DNA of 64,000 nt from Thermococcus peptonophilus. GTDB taxonomy: Archaea; Methanobacteriota_B; Thermococci; Thermococcales; Thermococcaceae. The stretch covers positions 930,001-994,000 of the forward strand of contig NZ_CP014750.1 in the NCBI RefSeq assembly GCF_001592435.1. Direction: 5' to 3'. Below the pieces are notes generated by a model. The model did no database searches. It was given only the letters and a program-made list of their open reading frames with translations, and was not told the DNA's origin. This document shows positions 23,865 to 60,448 of the stretch, in pieces. A program made the translations under genes and the position numbers. Numbering within the stretch: the first letter of the stretch is position 1; each line of letters begins with the position of its first letter.

Positions 23865-24740
23865 ATGGAAGAGATTTATTACATCACGTTCAGAGAGGCC
23901 AGAATGCTTCTCGCCTCAAGGGGAAAAGTTAAGCTCAACCCTGACCTCAGGAAGACAAACAGGGTCCTGGAAGTCGAGATAAAAGACGATGGTGGTGCCC
24001 TTTTTCCGGACGGTACTCTCGTTGAAAGGAACCTCCTTGAGAAGATAGCCAGAGACGACGGGACAGTCTACTTCGTTTCTAATGGTGGGGTGTATAAAGC
24101 GGCAATAGCGAGCGAATCAGGCTTTTACAAGCTCGTCCCCACGATTCCACCAACGATAGAGATAAACGGCATAAGGATGCACAGAACGAAGAGAGTGAAC
24201 CCACTCCAGGACACGAGGAACAAAGTGAACACCGTGAACCCCAAGGAGGGTGAGACAGTCCTCGACACATGCATGGGACTTGGATATACTGCCATAGAGG
24301 CATCAAAGAGGGGGGCTTACGTTATAACCATTGAAAAAGACCCAAACGTCATAGAGCTAGCGAGGATAAATCCATGGAGCCGGGAGCTCTTTACGGGTGG
24401 AAAGATTCAGGTTATTCAGGGAGATGCCTTTGAAGTTGTTAAAAAGTTCAAGCAAGCCAGTTTTGACGTGGTTATCCACGACCCCCCGCGCTTCTCATTG
24501 GCAGGCCATCTCTATTCAGAGGAGTTCCACAGGGAGCTTTTCAGGATTCTTAAGCCTGGAGGGAGACTATTCCACTACGTCGGCAACCCGGGGAAGAAGT
24601 ACAGGAAAAAAGACCTCCAGAGGGGAGTCATGGAAAGGCTGAGGAGGGCTGGTTTTGTCGGCGTTAGAAGGGTCGAGGAAGCGCTTGGGGTTGTGGCGAA
24701 AAAACCAGAAAAAGGAATAAAAGCGGGCCAGTGGGATTAA
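23865..24740 (+). CDS. SAM-dependent methyltransferase (COG2521-like, archaeal)
   Basis: 291 residues. The N-terminal ~115 residues form a separate alpha/beta domain; the C-terminal part is a Rossmann methyltransferase with motif I VLDTCMGLGYTAI, an acidic strand VITIEKDP, and motif IV HDPPRFS, close to the D/N-P-P-F/Y type used on nucleic-acid bases. An RNA or DNA substrate is therefore likely but not identified. Start ATG 23865 is probably leaderless. The stop overlaps the convergent YdjM-like gene by four bases. Confidence 0.8.
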   Translation: MEEIYYITFREARMLLASRGKVKLNPDLRKTNRVLEVEIKDDGGALFPDGTLVERNLLEKIARDDGTVYFVSNGGVYKAAIASESGFYKLVPTIPPTIEINGIRMHRTKRVNPLQDTRNKVNTVNPKEGETVLDTCMGLGYTAIEASKRGAYVITIEKDPNVIELARINPWSRELFTGGKIQVIQGDAFEVVKKFKQASFDVVIHDPPRFSLAGHLYSEEFHRELFRILKPGGRLFHYVGNPGKKYRKKDLQRGVMERLRRAGFVGVRRVEEALGVVAKKPEKGIKAGQWD

Positions 24741-26137
24741 ATCCCGCCGACCTCTTCCAGCTCCTCAAAGGCTTCCAGGTTGGTGTAGTAGTCCATGAGC
24801 TTGGCTATCTCCTTTCTCAGCTTGAAACTCTTTGCTATTGCTATTCCAAAGCCTATCATTGACGGCCAGATGAGGTAGAGGAGCAGCTTCGCGTCGCCTA
24901 TCGGTATCGGCCTCGGGTCAGTGAAGCGGTTGAAATTCCATATCATCAGCGCTATCATGAGCCAGGCCGTTGAGAAGTTTGTAAGCCCACTGCCGCTCTC
25001 TCCGAGCTTGAATCCAGGAATAACGTCCTTGGTTATCGGCGGGAATAGGTTGCTGCCCATGAAGCCGAGCTGATCCTCGAAGACGTGGAGCCACTGCCCT
25101 ATCATCGAGGCGAGGGCAAGATCCGTCGCGTGGCTGTAGCCGAAGAGCTTGGCGAAGAGGAAAACGAAGATTCCAATTATCACTCCCATCGTCATCGAGT
25201 GACTAAAGCCGTGGTGCCAGGGAAGGAACCTGTCCTTAACGACTGTTTTACCCTGGTGTTTCGTTCTCCTGAAGGCTATCTCCGGGCCTGAGAAGGAGTC
25301 TATCCTCGTTGGCTTGGGATAGGTCTTGATGAATGGCACGTTCACCCTCGCTATTCCGAACTTCCTGTACTCCGGCGGCTCACCCCCAATGGCGACTCCA
25401 CCAGGGGTAACTATCGGCCCCATCTCGACCCTTACCTCCCTCCTCGGGGGGTCAAGGTGTACCCAGAAACGTCTGTAAACGTCCCCTGGAAGGCGGATGT
25501 TGTGTATCTTGACTATCTTCTCTCCCTCTTCGTATGCCTTTTCTATGGCATCAGCTATTGTATCTGCAATTCCCTGCGGGTGTGGAGCGTCGCTGACGAT
25601 GAATCTCAGCGAACCATCTGGGTCAATGTCCACGTATCCAAACACGAGCATCTTCTTACCTTCCTCAATCTGACCGAACTCCTCTTCAAAGATTTCGTAA
25701 TCGTCCCCAAAGGCCTCCACTGTTATCTTCCCTGTTCCATCGCTGAGAGTGAAAACTATGGTGTTGTACTCTTCCATTACGGTCTCAACGTTGCCCTTCT
25801 CGTCAAAGACCTCGTAGGACATCGTTCCAGAGCCTTTTGTGAGTATCTCCTCAACAACCCCCTCGATGGCGAAGAACTGGTAGCGGTTCTTCTCGCTTAG
25901 ATCCTTTATTTTGACGAGCTTCGGCGCGTAGTGCTTCTTCTCGTCCCAGGGGGCAGGGTCTATCTCGTAGTCCCTCCTCGCGAAGAACTTTCCAAACTTG
26001 AAGTCAACGAAGTCCGGAAAGTAGGCGGCCGCCGCCGCTATGACAGGAACTAAGATTCCCATCCTCAGGTCGGCAACGAGGGAGGGGAAGAACGTTACCG
26101 CCGCGAGGCCGGATATGTAGTGGGTAAACCCTCTCAT
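24737..26137 (-). CDS. YdjM-type membrane hydrolase split by an OB-fold insert
   Basis: 466 residues. The N-terminus (GFTHYISG, then YFPDFVD) and a later block (HHGFSHSMTMG, then QWLHVFEDQLG) carry the His/Asp residues of the YdjM (DUF457) membrane-bound metal-dependent hydrolase family. Between them, about residues 75-190, lies an OB-fold-like domain (FFAIEGVVEEI, IVFTLSDGTGKITVEAFG, VFGYVDIDPDGSLRFIV). Several membrane helices follow. It is the third gene of an operon with a TctA-like protein and a giant OB-repeat protein. The enzymatic activity of the family is unproven. ATG 26137 follows GGGGTGATGG. Confidence 0.75.
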   Translation of the reverse strand: MRGFTHYISGLAAVTFFPSLVADLRMGILVPVIAAAAAYFPDFVDFKFGKFFARRDYEIDPAPWDEKKHYAPKLVKIKDLSEKNRYQFFAIEGVVEEILTKGSGTMSYEVFDEKGNVETVMEEYNTIVFTLSDGTGKITVEAFGDDYEIFEEEFGQIEEGKKMLVFGYVDIDPDGSLRFIVSDAPHPQGIADTIADAIEKAYEEGEKIVKIHNIRLPGDVYRRFWVHLDPPRREVRVEMGPIVTPGGVAIGGEPPEYRKFGIARVNVPFIKTYPKPTRIDSFSGPEIAFRRTKHQGKTVVKDRFLPWHHGFSHSMTMGVIIGIFVFLFAKLFGYSHATDLALASMIGQWLHVFEDQLGFMGSNLFPPITKDVIPGFKLGESGSGLTNFSTAWLMIALMIWNFNRFTDPRPIPIGDAKLLLYLIWPSMIGFGIAIAKSFKLRKEIAKLMDYYTNLEAFEELEEVGGI

Positions 26138-26143
26138 CTTCCA

Positions 26144-27472
26144 TCACCCCAGTCCAAGCAGGTGCATGAAAGCCCCGGTATGCCCCGTCATGCTGATGAG
26201 CACCGGCAGTATTAGGCCGCCGAGGCAGTAGCTCCTCCTAGTGTTGAAGGCAGCCGCCATTAGACCTATTGCCGTCGAGACGAAGAGCACCACAACTCCC
26301 ATCCAGCCGGTGAGGAGGTAAGATATTGCTACCAGCACCGCAGCCACGAAGTAGGATACCTTCTTGGTGTGCATGACGTTGAAGCTCCTCGCTATAATCT
26401 TTGAAAGCCCATACGTAAAGAGGAAGCTTATTCCAGAGGCAAGCAGGATGACGCCGACGGCTGCTATGTACTCCGAATAGCTCTTTGGGGTGTAGAGAGA
26501 GCTGACGAGCCACGCTCCGGCTCCCCTTGTGAGCCTCAGGTTCGGCAGGAAGAGTAGGGAGAATGCTCCGACATAGTAGAGGACTCTGTTCACACCCTGG
26601 CTGATGATGAAGGCATCATCACCGCGCTGGCTCGTCATATGGCCTGCAACGAGCGCCCCCATACCTCCAGTGATTATCGGATAGACCGCCGCTATCGTCC
26701 CTCCGAGGGCACCCCCAAAGCTGGCCTTTAGGGTATTGTAGATGCTGCTCTCAACTTTGTCCTCCGGCTTCTGCGGTAGCATCGGCGGGTTGGAGAGTAT
26801 GTTGAGTATCACCCACGACATTCCAAAGAAGCCTATGAACATCGGCGTTAACCTTGTGTAGGCGCTCGTTGTGGGGAGTATGTTGGTGTTCATGACTATG
26901 AAGCCGAGGATTCCAGAAAGGAAGAACACAAAGATTCCGCCGAGTATCTGCCTCCACGCCAGCCAGAGCCTCTCCCTCACGGTCTTTCCCCTGTCGCCCT
27001 CTTTAGGCCACTCGCTCATGAACATGAAGAGGACTATTGCCGTCAGGAAGTACGTGATGTAGGGGCTTGTGGCCTGATAGATCGGGGGCAGTACCTTGGG
27101 GAAGATGAAGAGCATGCTGAAGACGAGGATCAGAGTGCCCGCAACTGCCCCAATGAGGTAGAGCAGTACTGCCTCGTGTCCCCTGCCGAGGAGGAGGTAG
27201 CGCTGGGTCGGGAAGAGGAGGAACACCGCACTCTCGTCAGCGACGCTAAAGTACACGCTTGATATTGCACTTACGTAGGCGTAGGCTACTATGGCCCCAA
27301 CTGCGAAGAACGGGAACGCCTGTACTGGCATAAGCTCGCCCACGCCGAAGACTGCCACCAGTAAGGCGATGATGTTGTAGATATGGAACCCCGGAATCCA
27401 AGATATCAGCGAGCCGAAGAGCACTCCGGCGAAAGACCAGATTAAAAGATCGGAGATGGGGAGCACGGCCAT
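26144..27472 (-). CDS. TctA-like polytopic membrane protein (COG1784 type)
   Basis: 442 residues with about eleven hydrophobic segments. It resembles the large membrane subunit of tripartite tricarboxylate transporters in glycine-rich loops such as GSLISWIPGFH near the N-terminus and GGALGGTIAAVYPIITGGMGALVAG in the centre, but the other two components of such a transporter (TctB, TctC) are not encoded here. Archaeal members form a distinct group of unknown function. It overlaps the stop of the OB-repeat gene by one base and precedes the YdjM-like gene by six, so it lies inside an operon and probably forms one membrane assembly with them. Confidence 0.7.
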   Translation of the reverse strand: MAVLPISDLLIWSFAGVLFGSLISWIPGFHIYNIIALLVAVFGVGELMPVQAFPFFAVGAIVAYAYVSAISSVYFSVADESAVFLLFPTQRYLLLGRGHEAVLLYLIGAVAGTLILVFSMLFIFPKVLPPIYQATSPYITYFLTAIVLFMFMSEWPKEGDRGKTVRERLWLAWRQILGGIFVFFLSGILGFIVMNTNILPTTSAYTRLTPMFIGFFGMSWVILNILSNPPMLPQKPEDKVESSIYNTLKASFGGALGGTIAAVYPIITGGMGALVAGHMTSQRGDDAFIISQGVNRVLYYVGAFSLLFLPNLRLTRGAGAWLVSSLYTPKSYSEYIAAVGVILLASGISFLFTYGLSKIIARSFNVMHTKKVSYFVAAVLVAISYLLTGWMGVVVLFVSTAIGLMAAAFNTRRSYCLGGLILPVLISMTGHTGAFMHLLGLG

Positions 27473-30444
27473 CACCTCACCTCGATGGCATCGGCGGTGT
27501 ACGGAATGATCTCAACAGTTCCCTTGTACTCCGAAACGTAGCCTCCGACCCTCACCGTCTGCCCTTTGCTGAATGTCATGTTCCCTGCGACGCTCTTCGG
27601 AATGAAGATCACCAGCTCCCCGCTTCCGTCGTCTATCGTGAGCTTGATGAAGGTCTTTCCTTCGTAAACGTCCTTGATCGTGCCCTCGACGATTACTGTT
27701 TTGCCCTTCATGTCGAGGGTGACGTCTCCAGTCTTGTAAGCCTCGGAAGGTACGGCTTCGGTGACGGTGAGTGAGACTACTTTCTTTGCGTCAGCGTCGT
27801 AGGTTATTTCTATCCTGCTTCCCGTTCCAGCCTCGAACGGGTTCGGGAGGAGCTCGCGGCTGATTGAGAGCGTGGCACTTCCGGTATCGTCGCTGACGGT
27901 GATGTAGTAGCCGTTGTCGTAGTCCAAGCTATCCCAGACCACGGTAAGGTTCACTTGACCAGTGGCAGATGAAAGCGCGGAAACGGTGACTTCCCTGGTT
28001 GTTTCTCCCTGTGACGGCACACCTTCAACCTTTACAGCCTCGGGCGTGTACACAACCAGCTCCGGCGCTCCGTTGTATTCTTCCACGTAGCCGGCTGTAT
28101 AAACAACTGAGCCTTCGGTGATGTTCAGGCCTGCTCCGTTCGGTATGAATACCGCTATCCCACCGCTTCCGTCGTCGAGGGTGAGCTTGAGGTTGTCTCC
28201 AACTGCTACTACCTTGACGGCGGTCGCGTTGAGGGCTATGACCTTACCCTTCATGTCGAGCGTAACCTCTCCAGTTCTGTATGTCCTCGGTGGAAGTGCT
28301 TCTGCGATCTCCAGGGAAGTTGCACTGCCGGAGAGGGGATCAACAACGATCTTGAGGGTGCTTCCAGTGGCTGCTTCGAGCGGGTTGGGGAGGAGATCCT
28401 TGGTTGCTGTCACGGTTGTGCTTCCCGTGCCGTCGTGAACTCCCAGGTAGTACTCTCCACTCTCGTAGGCGATAGAATCCCAGGTAACCGCCAGAAGGAG
28501 CGGCTCAACGGCGCTCTTGAGGTCAGCGACTGTTCCCTCAACGGGCCCGGTCTGCTCTATCTTCTTGATCGCCTCTGGGTGGAAGACGACAACTTCAGGC
28601 TCGTCGCGGTAGAGCTCAACGTAGCCTCCAATCTCAACTAGGTCGCCCTCCTGCGGGACGTAGGCCAACTCGTTGGCTGTAGTCCTTGGCACGAACACCG
28701 AGAGGCTTCCAAGGGTTATCTTGAGGTTGCCGCTGAGGTTAGCAACGTCTGTGACCCTGCCTGCGACAGCCACAATCTTTCCGACCATATCTGCCGTAAC
28801 GCTATCCGGGCGTATCTGAACTGGCGGAACCGCAGCCTGTACGATCAGGGACTCTCCTTTGAGGTCGTTCGAATCTTTAACGAGTGCCCTGATAACCAGA
28901 ACGCTTCCCTCGCCTGACTCCAGCGGGTTGAGAGCTATCAGAGCGTCCCTTGAAATGGAGACGGTGACGCCGTCAACGCTCATGTAGTAGGTTCCGTTGG
29001 CGTAGGTTATGCCCTGGAGGGAGCCGACAAAGTCAACTAGCCCCCCTCTGTATTTTCCGAGCTCCGAGACCCTAACCTGTGGAAGCTGTACTTCGGAGGG
29101 GCTGACCGGCCTTCCGAGGGCCTTCACCCCCGCTCCTGTGTAGACGACGATCTCAGGACTGCCGCGGTACTCGTCGAGGTAGCCGGCGACCTCAACACCG
29201 AGTCCCTCTTTGAGCCCAGTCAGCGTCTCGTTGGATAGCTCCCTGAGGGTCGCAGACGGTATGAAGACGTCTACCTTTCCAGTTCCGTCACTAACGACCA
29301 GTTTGAGGTTTGAACCGACCTTTTGAACTTCTTCAACGTTGGCCTTGACTGCAACTACTGTACCCTTCATATCTGGCGTCAGAACCCCCACCGGCAGGAA
29401 CTCTGTCTTAACGGGCTTGAGAGCTTTGAGGTATGCGCCAACAAGCCTGCCGTCGTCGCCCATCTTTCCGACCGCCTTGATAATGCTTCCACTGCCGACT
29501 TCGAACGGGTTGAGATCAGCGAGGACTTCCCTCGGGACGAGGACGTCGAGGTAGTTAGTTCCGTCGGTGAGCGTGAGGACGTAGCGCCCGCTCTCGTAGG
29601 ATATTCCCATGAGGTTACCCTGGACGGACATAACCATTCCGACGTAACCTGAAGCCTCGGCCAGAGAAACGAGCGGAGAGCTCTCTATTGGAGTCACGTT
29701 GAACTGCCCAAGTGACCGCACAACGATTTCAGGTGAAGTTCCCTTGTAGAGGTAGACAACGCCCGGCGCGTAAACGGTATCCCCAACTTTTACTGAGACG
29801 TTGTTTTTGATGAGGAGAACCCTCGGTATGAGGACTGTCACGGGCGCAACTCCCGTATCAACGGTCAAGAGGTAGCCGGAGCTGACGTTGGAGAACTCAG
29901 TAACGATTCCATGAACGGCGACGTAGGTGTTGCTCATGTTCTCGGTGAGCTCCTTAACAGTTGGCGGGTTCTCGGAGTAGAGCTTCCCGTTGAACTTCAG
30001 CCCTTCGAGGTACTGGAGCATGGCGTAGGTGTAGGTCTCCCTAACGCGGAGCTGCACCTCGGCAGTGACGTTGTCGCCGGGAAAAGGAATCACGCCCTTT
30101 TCTATCATCTCGTCCGCGAGCGGCGAGTATACCCTGACGTCCATCTGACCAGTCCCGTCATCTATCGTAAACGTCAGCGAGAGCTTACCGCCGGATTCCG
30201 ATACGTAGGGAACGCTCGCGACAGTTCCGCTCAGCCTAACGACGGCGTAGTTCATCATGTAGCTGCCAGTGACGTCGCTCACCTTCATCAGCGGTGCTTG
30301 GGCACCCTGGGCGACAACAAGGAGAACCGCAACTCCAATTACTGACAGCAAAAGCGAGAGATATTTCAGCTTCGACACGTCGATCTTTTTCTGCTCCTTC
30401 AGGCCGTGATAATACAGCTTTTTCTCTTCCTTCTCGCCGGCCAT
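27472..30444 (-). CDS. Giant membrane-anchored protein of ten tandem OB-fold-like modules
   Basis: 990 residues from ATG 30444 (GGAGGT upstream; the longer frame to 30504 is unneeded). A cytosolic basic N-terminus and a single membrane anchor (about 29-47) lead into a long outside region. I count ten modules by their recurring core strands: FTIDDGTGQMDV, LTVDTGVAPVTV, LTLTDGTNYLDV, LVVSDGTGKVDV, MSVDGVTVSI, ITLGSLSVFV, LGVHDGTGSTTV, LTLDDGSGGIAV, ITVSDDTGSATL and LTIDDGSGELVI. After the first, two subtypes alternate (one followed by L-NPFE/LE-GSG, the other by VFIP). The core resembles nucleic-acid-binding OB folds. It heads the operon with the TctA-like and YdjM/OB genes. Ligand unknown. Confidence 0.75.
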   Translation of the reverse strand: MAGEKEEKKLYYHGLKEQKKIDVSKLKYLSLLLSVIGVAVLLVVAQGAQAPLMKVSDVTGSYMMNYAVVRLSGTVASVPYVSESGGKLSLTFTIDDGTGQMDVRVYSPLADEMIEKGVIPFPGDNVTAEVQLRVRETYTYAMLQYLEGLKFNGKLYSENPPTVKELTENMSNTYVAVHGIVTEFSNVSSGYLLTVDTGVAPVTVLIPRVLLIKNNVSVKVGDTVYAPGVVYLYKGTSPEIVVRSLGQFNVTPIESSPLVSLAEASGYVGMVMSVQGNLMGISYESGRYVLTLTDGTNYLDVLVPREVLADLNPFEVGSGSIIKAVGKMGDDGRLVGAYLKALKPVKTEFLPVGVLTPDMKGTVVAVKANVEEVQKVGSNLKLVVSDGTGKVDVFIPSATLRELSNETLTGLKEGLGVEVAGYLDEYRGSPEIVVYTGAGVKALGRPVSPSEVQLPQVRVSELGKYRGGLVDFVGSLQGITYANGTYYMSVDGVTVSISRDALIALNPLESGEGSVLVIRALVKDSNDLKGESLIVQAAVPPVQIRPDSVTADMVGKIVAVAGRVTDVANLSGNLKITLGSLSVFVPRTTANELAYVPQEGDLVEIGGYVELYRDEPEVVVFHPEAIKKIEQTGPVEGTVADLKSAVEPLLLAVTWDSIAYESGEYYLGVHDGTGSTTVTATKDLLPNPLEAATGSTLKIVVDPLSGSATSLEIAEALPPRTYRTGEVTLDMKGKVIALNATAVKVVAVGDNLKLTLDDGSGGIAVFIPNGAGLNITEGSVVYTAGYVEEYNGAPELVVYTPEAVKVEGVPSQGETTREVTVSALSSATGQVNLTVVWDSLDYDNGYYITVSDDTGSATLSISRELLPNPFEAGTGSRIEITYDADAKKVVSLTVTEAVPSEAYKTGDVTLDMKGKTVIVEGTIKDVYEGKTFIKLTIDDGSGELVIFIPKSVAGNMTFSKGQTVRVGGYVSEYKGTVEIIPYTADAIEVR

Positions 30445-59914: not shown

Positions 59915-60448
59915 ATGCCGAACTACGATGCCCACGTCCTCAGCGGGATAGTCACCTACCCGGCAGCAGTGCTCGTAGGATTCCTCCTTAAACTCTACCT
60001 GAAAGTCCCTCTGGAGCTTACGTCAACGGCCATGATGCTCGGCTATGCGTTCTACGTCCTGGGAAGCGACCTTCCCGACCTCGACCACCCCGATGCTCTG
60101 ATACACAGGGGTGCAAAGCCCATAGTCAGCGTCGCCGTTGGAAGCGCGGCCTTCCTGTGGGCAAACGGATGGGTGAACCTCAGCCCGGAGTGGGTCTCGG
60201 TGGTCGTTGCCTGGGCAATCGGAGCTGTTGGGGCTTTGGTTGGATGGTACGCCTTCACATGGCTGATGCCGCATCACAGGGGGATCGTCCATTCCCTGCT
60301 TTTCGCGACTGTTTATGGTCTGCTGGTCTTCCTGCTGGTTGAGTACGGGCTCAAAATGAGCACGGGGGAGGCCCTCTACACCGGCCTGTCAGCGTTCCTG
60401 GGCTACACCCTGCACCTCCTCCTTGACGGCTCTCTGAAGCTCATATGA
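59915..60448 (+). CDS. YdjM-type (DUF457) membrane protein
   Basis: 177 residues with five membrane segments. Family residues: YDAHVLSGIVTY, GSDLPDLDHPDALIHRG and LMPHHRGIVHSLLFA, the His/Asp groups of the predicted membrane metal-dependent hydrolases. Shorter than, and lacking the OB insert of, the YdjM-like protein at 24737-26137. Coupled to the AAA ATPase gene. Confidence 0.82.
   Translation: MPNYDAHVLSGIVTYPAAVLVGFLLKLYLKVPLELTSTAMMLGYAFYVLGSDLPDLDHPDALIHRGAKPIVSVAVGSAAFLWANGWVNLSPEWVSVVVAWAIGAVGALVGWYAFTWLMPHHRGIVHSLLFATVYGLLVFLLVEYGLKMSTGEALYTGLSAFLGYTLHLLLDGSLKLI

Follow-up and report, generated by a model that had tools for sequence, protein, structure and literature searches.

A three-gene operon of Thermococcus peptonophilus with a ten-module OB array, related to archaeal OB-TctA pairs and possibly involved in nucleic acid translocation

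The stretch of DNA that was analysed (the window; 64,000 nucleotides of Thermococcus peptonophilus, contig NZ_CP014750.1, positions 930,001 to 994,000) carries on its minus strand, at 24737-30444, an operon of three genes, read in the order 990-aa OB protein, TctA-like protein and YdjM-type protein (Table 1). The first gene starts at an ATG at position 30444 with the motif ggagg in front of it. The TctA-like gene can be read either as 443 aa from a GTG at 27475 or as 442 aa from an ATG at 27472; the one-base overlap with the preceding gene that was given in the first-pass annotation of this DNA holds for the ATG, and the six-base gap given with it was likewise borne out. Upstream, at a distance of 199 bases, there is an S9 peptidase gene, and at the other side a convergent methyltransferase gene that overlaps the YdjM-type gene at its end; the unit therefore comprises exactly three genes. 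Elsewhere in the window there are two overlapping DUF257 genes (PF03192; 22617-23826, plus strand), whose presence is variable in the same neighbourhood of relatives, and a gene for a second YdjM-family (PF04307) membrane protein (59972-60427, plus strand) that has no OB match. A search with PADLOC returned no defence-system match worth following (best E 0.09).

Table 1. Genes and domains of the operon, with positions in the window
Feature	Position	Strand	Basis
990-aa OB protein	27472..30444	-	ORF, Pfam, module HMM, AlphaFold2, Foldseek
OB modules 1-10 (residues 63-987 of the 990-aa protein)	27484..30258	-	HMM; model of modules 8-10; Foldseek
OB modules 1-5 (residues 63-114, 166-245, 266-331, 355-440, 464-526)			module HMM
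OB modules 6-10 (residues 549-626, 651-700, 727-804, 829-881, 908-987)			module HMM
TctA-like integral membrane protein, OB-partnered archaeal TctA clade	26144..27475	-	Pfam, tree, profiles
YdjM-type (PF04307) membrane protein, 466 aa, candidate metal-dependent hydrolase	24737..26137	-	Pfam, alignment, model
OB domain in the YdjM-type protein (residues 88-181)	25595..25876	-	PF01336, modelled barrel, Foldseek
C-terminal YdjM segment (residues 305-388), WHHGFSH and WLHVFED motifs	24974..25225	-	PF04307 match, invariance

All three proteins were found in the same 30 genomes, out of 61 in the genus and 94 in the family, and in none of the 33 family genomes outside the genus. In the syntenic loci that were read, the same genes flank the operon on both sides. 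The first-pass annotation had considered that the genes might not be conserved together in other genomes; instead, they share one locus and an identical set of genomes. Five genomes that lack the operon retain at this locus only 43-91 codons, the 3' end of the YdjM-type gene, and these leftovers indicate that the operon was lost as a unit. In these scars (L083, L084, L085, L086 and L087) the YdjM-type 3' end adjoins the methyltransferase gene, and in L084 an OB remnant is also left, in inverted orientation. The three genes are thus one real operon, inherited and lost as a unit. That they are unrelated and adjacent by chance is extremely improbable; although no physical interaction data were found that would connect the proteins, the common distribution, the single locus and the overlaps speak against chance, and the joint gain and loss, with its scars, already contradicts it.

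The 990-aa protein has a short cytoplasmic N-terminus and a single transmembrane helix (residues 26-44), followed by the OB modules. Pfam detects the OB family PF01336 (E 1.3e-29), and an HMM seeded with the last repeat recognises exactly ten modules (i-E-values 3e-11 to 1e-31), in agreement with the anchored protein with ten tandem OB modules that was first annotated. An AlphaFold2 model of modules 8-10 has a mean pLDDT of 92, and its best Foldseek matches in the PDB are tandem-OB proteins, mostly DNA-binding (HIN-200/IFI16/p204, Teb1, LEF-3, RPA and CST). The fold of the single module is clear; that the three-module model as a whole reaches TM-scores of only about 0.3 is due to the freedom of the modules to rotate relative to one another. 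Ig-like modules, which the first-pass annotation had also kept in view, are ruled out by the model and by these matches. In six genomes the array is shorter (about 640-700 aa), and in five of the six a 470-aa OB paralog adjoins it. Extra OB paralogs (335-498 aa) lie beside the array in L077 (6461-7894, inverted), L075, L076, L078, L079, L069 and L065, which suggests that modules are gained and lost in this region.

A single N-terminal helix and N-glycosylation sequons in excess (12 where 4.7±1.9 are expected, repeated in full-length array homologs with 10-15 against about 5) make it most likely that the array lies outside the cell. With a net charge of -40 and modules of 0 to -6, the array is acidic; strong DNA binders typically are not, which was counted against a role in DNA handling, although most archaeal OB partners of TctA are likewise acidic. 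The acidity and the wealth of sequons, as well as the capacity of OB folds to bind oligosaccharides, would agree with a glycan or surface-layer system with oligosaccharide bound by the modules, glycan or lipid intermediates carried by the TctA-like protein, and lipid-linked material as the substrate of the YdjM-type protein. We consider such a system improbable, since neither the operon nor the conserved genes immediately flanking it include a glycosyltransferase or sugar gene, and since the genetics of a related pair, described below, concern transformation.

The third protein, of 466 aa, matches YdjM PF04307 at residues 305-388 (E 7.8e-12; 45.5 bits against a curated cut-off of 29) and OB PF01336 at residues 127-183 (E 3.6e-7). 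Its OB region was modelled as a barrel whose best Foldseek matches are to Pyrococcus abyssi RPA; the membrane part was modelled poorly. The matches and the modelled barrel uphold the earlier description of a YdjM-type protein split by an OB domain. Candidate metal ligands (H6, D42, D45, H308, H309, H313, H351 and D355) are invariant in 18 homologs, and the protein is a candidate metal-dependent hydrolase. As a lead, the YdjM family may share the phospholipase C/P1 nuclease fold. Several K and R residues lie in the segment before the soluble part, and the soluble part contains no sequons, where 0.4 would be expected, in itself weak evidence; charge and sequons together weakly suggest that the protein's own OB domain is intracellular, which would leave the ten-module array as the one likely extracellular OB part. 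The outside location first given to the array is likely, on its helix and sequons, and may not extend to the OB domain of the hydrolase. Sequence searches found no relative of solved structure for the YdjM-type protein or for the TctA family.

The second protein is TctA-like, as first annotated (PF01970, E 3.8e-43), with ten helices in a hydropathy scan instead of the eleven originally counted. The usual transporter partners are indeed missing, no TctB or TctC gene being present in the operon or its flanks. In a tree and profile comparison against five reference TctABC permeases, the operon TctA groups with an OB-partnered archaeal clade apart from these permeases (branch support 100/100); it scores 224 bits against the profile of that clade and has no match to the TctABC profile. 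It sits on a very long branch and is strongly diverged. The PGxH motif, R317 and the glycine core of the OB-partnered clade are retained, and residues otherwise invariant in the clade are altered (H65, P72, G77, P79 and H91 in the numbering of the operon TctA), a further point counted against DNA handling. The operon TctA is a diverged clade member, perhaps with another substrate or direction.

Archaeal TctA proteins are often accompanied by OB proteins. The 80 archaeal loci gathered by TctA alone contain 48 co-directional ORFs directly upstream of TctA, and 30 of these encode an OB protein (E < 1e-3), against OB matches in 8 of the 689 other ORFs. Because ORFs were called simply as the longest ones, spurious upstream ORFs may be included; their only effect would be a lower OB rate. 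Pfam confirmed OB domains for most of the upstream OB proteins that were sampled. The arrangement seen in the operon, with a single-helix OB protein directly upstream of and co-directional with TctA, is thus found in 30 of the 80 loci, and the organisms with such a pair include Woesearchaeota, Aenigmatarchaeota, Hadarchaeota, Hydrothermarchaeota, Theionarchaea and Thermoplasmata. On these sequence comparisons the pairing is ancient. No regular YdjM or common nuclease neighbour was seen downstream of the other archaeal pairs, and the third gene is therefore peculiar to the operon. Two cyanobacterial plasmids (NZ_CP060823.1 and NZ_CP112877.1) also bear an archaeal-type pair, in which an anchored OB protein precedes TctA as in the operon; unlike in the operon, the OB proteins are short (231-253 aa) and YdjM is absent. 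A NERD-domain gene comes next at one plasmid locus, and one of the plasmid OB proteins is annotated merely as hypothetical.

Almost the whole of the Thermococcales has a second TctA; in all 20 of its loci that were checked, the gene directly upstream overlaps it and encodes an anchored protein of about 385 aa. Across the 243 ORFs of these loci an OB HMM picks 18 of the 20 upstream genes and nothing else at E < 1, and the OB profile of this family-wide pair matches the operon modules (E 1.4e-5). The pair (own copy at about G000:C1:1160168-1162424; also L088:6168-8428) thus resembles the operon in its overlapping anchored OB protein and TctA. It differs in its degenerate OB repeats with conserved cysteines, which are usually neutral to basic, in a TctA only 25% identical to that of the operon, and in the absence of a YdjM gene. 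Recent duplication of this pair as the source of the operon is not supported by the tree, in which the operon TctA clade stands alone on its long branch. Taken together, the operon is very probably a member of the archaeal OB-TctA kind.

Although the first-pass annotation knew of no characterised system of this composition, the OB-TctA core had been characterised genetically in 2023. A transposon screen in Methanococcus maripaludis, followed up by deletion and complementation, showed that natural transformation depends on both MMJJ_13020, an OB-fold protein with one helix, and MMJJ_13030, a TctA-like protein with 11 helices, each of them essential; the TctA homolog of M. thermophilus was likewise required for transformation. 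The TctA-like protein was proposed to be the DNA transporter. For the OB protein, BLAST gave no single clear homolog in M. thermophilus (Fonseca et al., 2023; PMC10133366). By their published description these genes are like the operon, with a single-helix OB protein adjoining an archaeal TctA-like protein without TctB or TctC; the operon differs in its ten OB modules, its strongly diverged TctA and its added YdjM-OB gene. Among the activities first suggested, which were uptake, binding or processing of DNA, RNA or glycan, DNA handling is the best supported because a related pair is needed for transformation in M. maripaludis (PMC10133366), and the operon proteins probably handle DNA at the cell surface. 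Whether the operon moves nucleic acid we judge to be evenly balanced. To be weighed against it, the operon is missing from other genera of the family, the Pyrococcus-type ones included, and some of these are transformable.

Two other kinds of transport bear on this question. A transporter of small solutes, carboxylates or similar, would have TctA as the permease, the OB array as its substrate-binding protein and the hydrolase as a lipid or metabolite enzyme. The TctA fold and name, and a 2015 prediction of carboxylate transport for this family (arCOG04469; PMC5898192), point that way, and the changed conserved residues of TctA could mean a different cargo. Yet the operon has only the TctA superfamily in common with the bacterial TctABC tricarboxylate transporter: TctB and TctC are not there, its TctA falls in a different clade (100/100), the partner of TctA across archaea is an OB protein instead of a solute-binding protein, and the phenotype in two archaea is one of transformation (PMC10133366), so we regard solute transport as unlikely. 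Slightly less probable still is export, in which DNA or nucleic-acid-loaded material would be released, for instance into vesicles, with the polymer guided outward by the array and trimmed by the hydrolase. No sequence feature fixes the direction of transport, and presence is patchy within one genus, both of which export could accommodate; however, the sole genetics on a related pair concern uptake (PMC10133366), and the operon has no secretion ATPase.

For nucleic acid uptake, the model that we infer would begin with the ten-OB array, anchored by its one helix, extending into the surface layer and capturing a polymer that is most probably DNA. The conduit across the membrane, presumably for inward passage, would be the TctA-like protein, and the YdjM-type hydrolase, fixed at the membrane and with its own OB domain, would cut or process the same polymer, probably on the cytoplasmic side. 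The three proteins would then share tasks that ComEC unites in one: the bacterial protein combines an OB fold, a membrane channel and a metal nuclease (PMC12455585), and archaea have no identifiable ComEC (PMC10133366). The likeness is one of outline, as the operon has separate proteins, no sequence relationship to ComEC and no beta-lactamase-like domain. Pfam gave no match to the ComEC competence domain (PF03772) in the three proteins, and none of 31 relatives had ComEC above the cut-off. It is conceivable, if somewhat doubtful, that the operon is a ComEC-like nucleic-acid machine of independent origin, with OB capture, TctA conduit and YdjM processing nuclease, a specialised offshoot of an ancient archaeal OB-TctA module for DNA uptake that reaches DPANN archaea and cyanobacterial plasmids.

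The operon would act beside the family-wide OB-TctA pair, and the presence of that pair suggests an accessory or altered-substrate translocator rather than the basic competence machine. With about equal weight for and against, we read the operon as a Thermococcus-specific, enlarged second version of the OB-TctA module, an accessory translocator, probably of nucleic acid, to which a hydrolase has been added. The wide linkage of OB protein and TctA agrees with the 2023 genetics of DNA passage into archaea; the pair is here extended to DPANN lineages, Hadarchaeota, Hydrothermarchaeota and Theionarchaea. One transformable genus possesses the module in two versions, of which the operon has a long array of DNA-binding type and a candidate processing enzyme.
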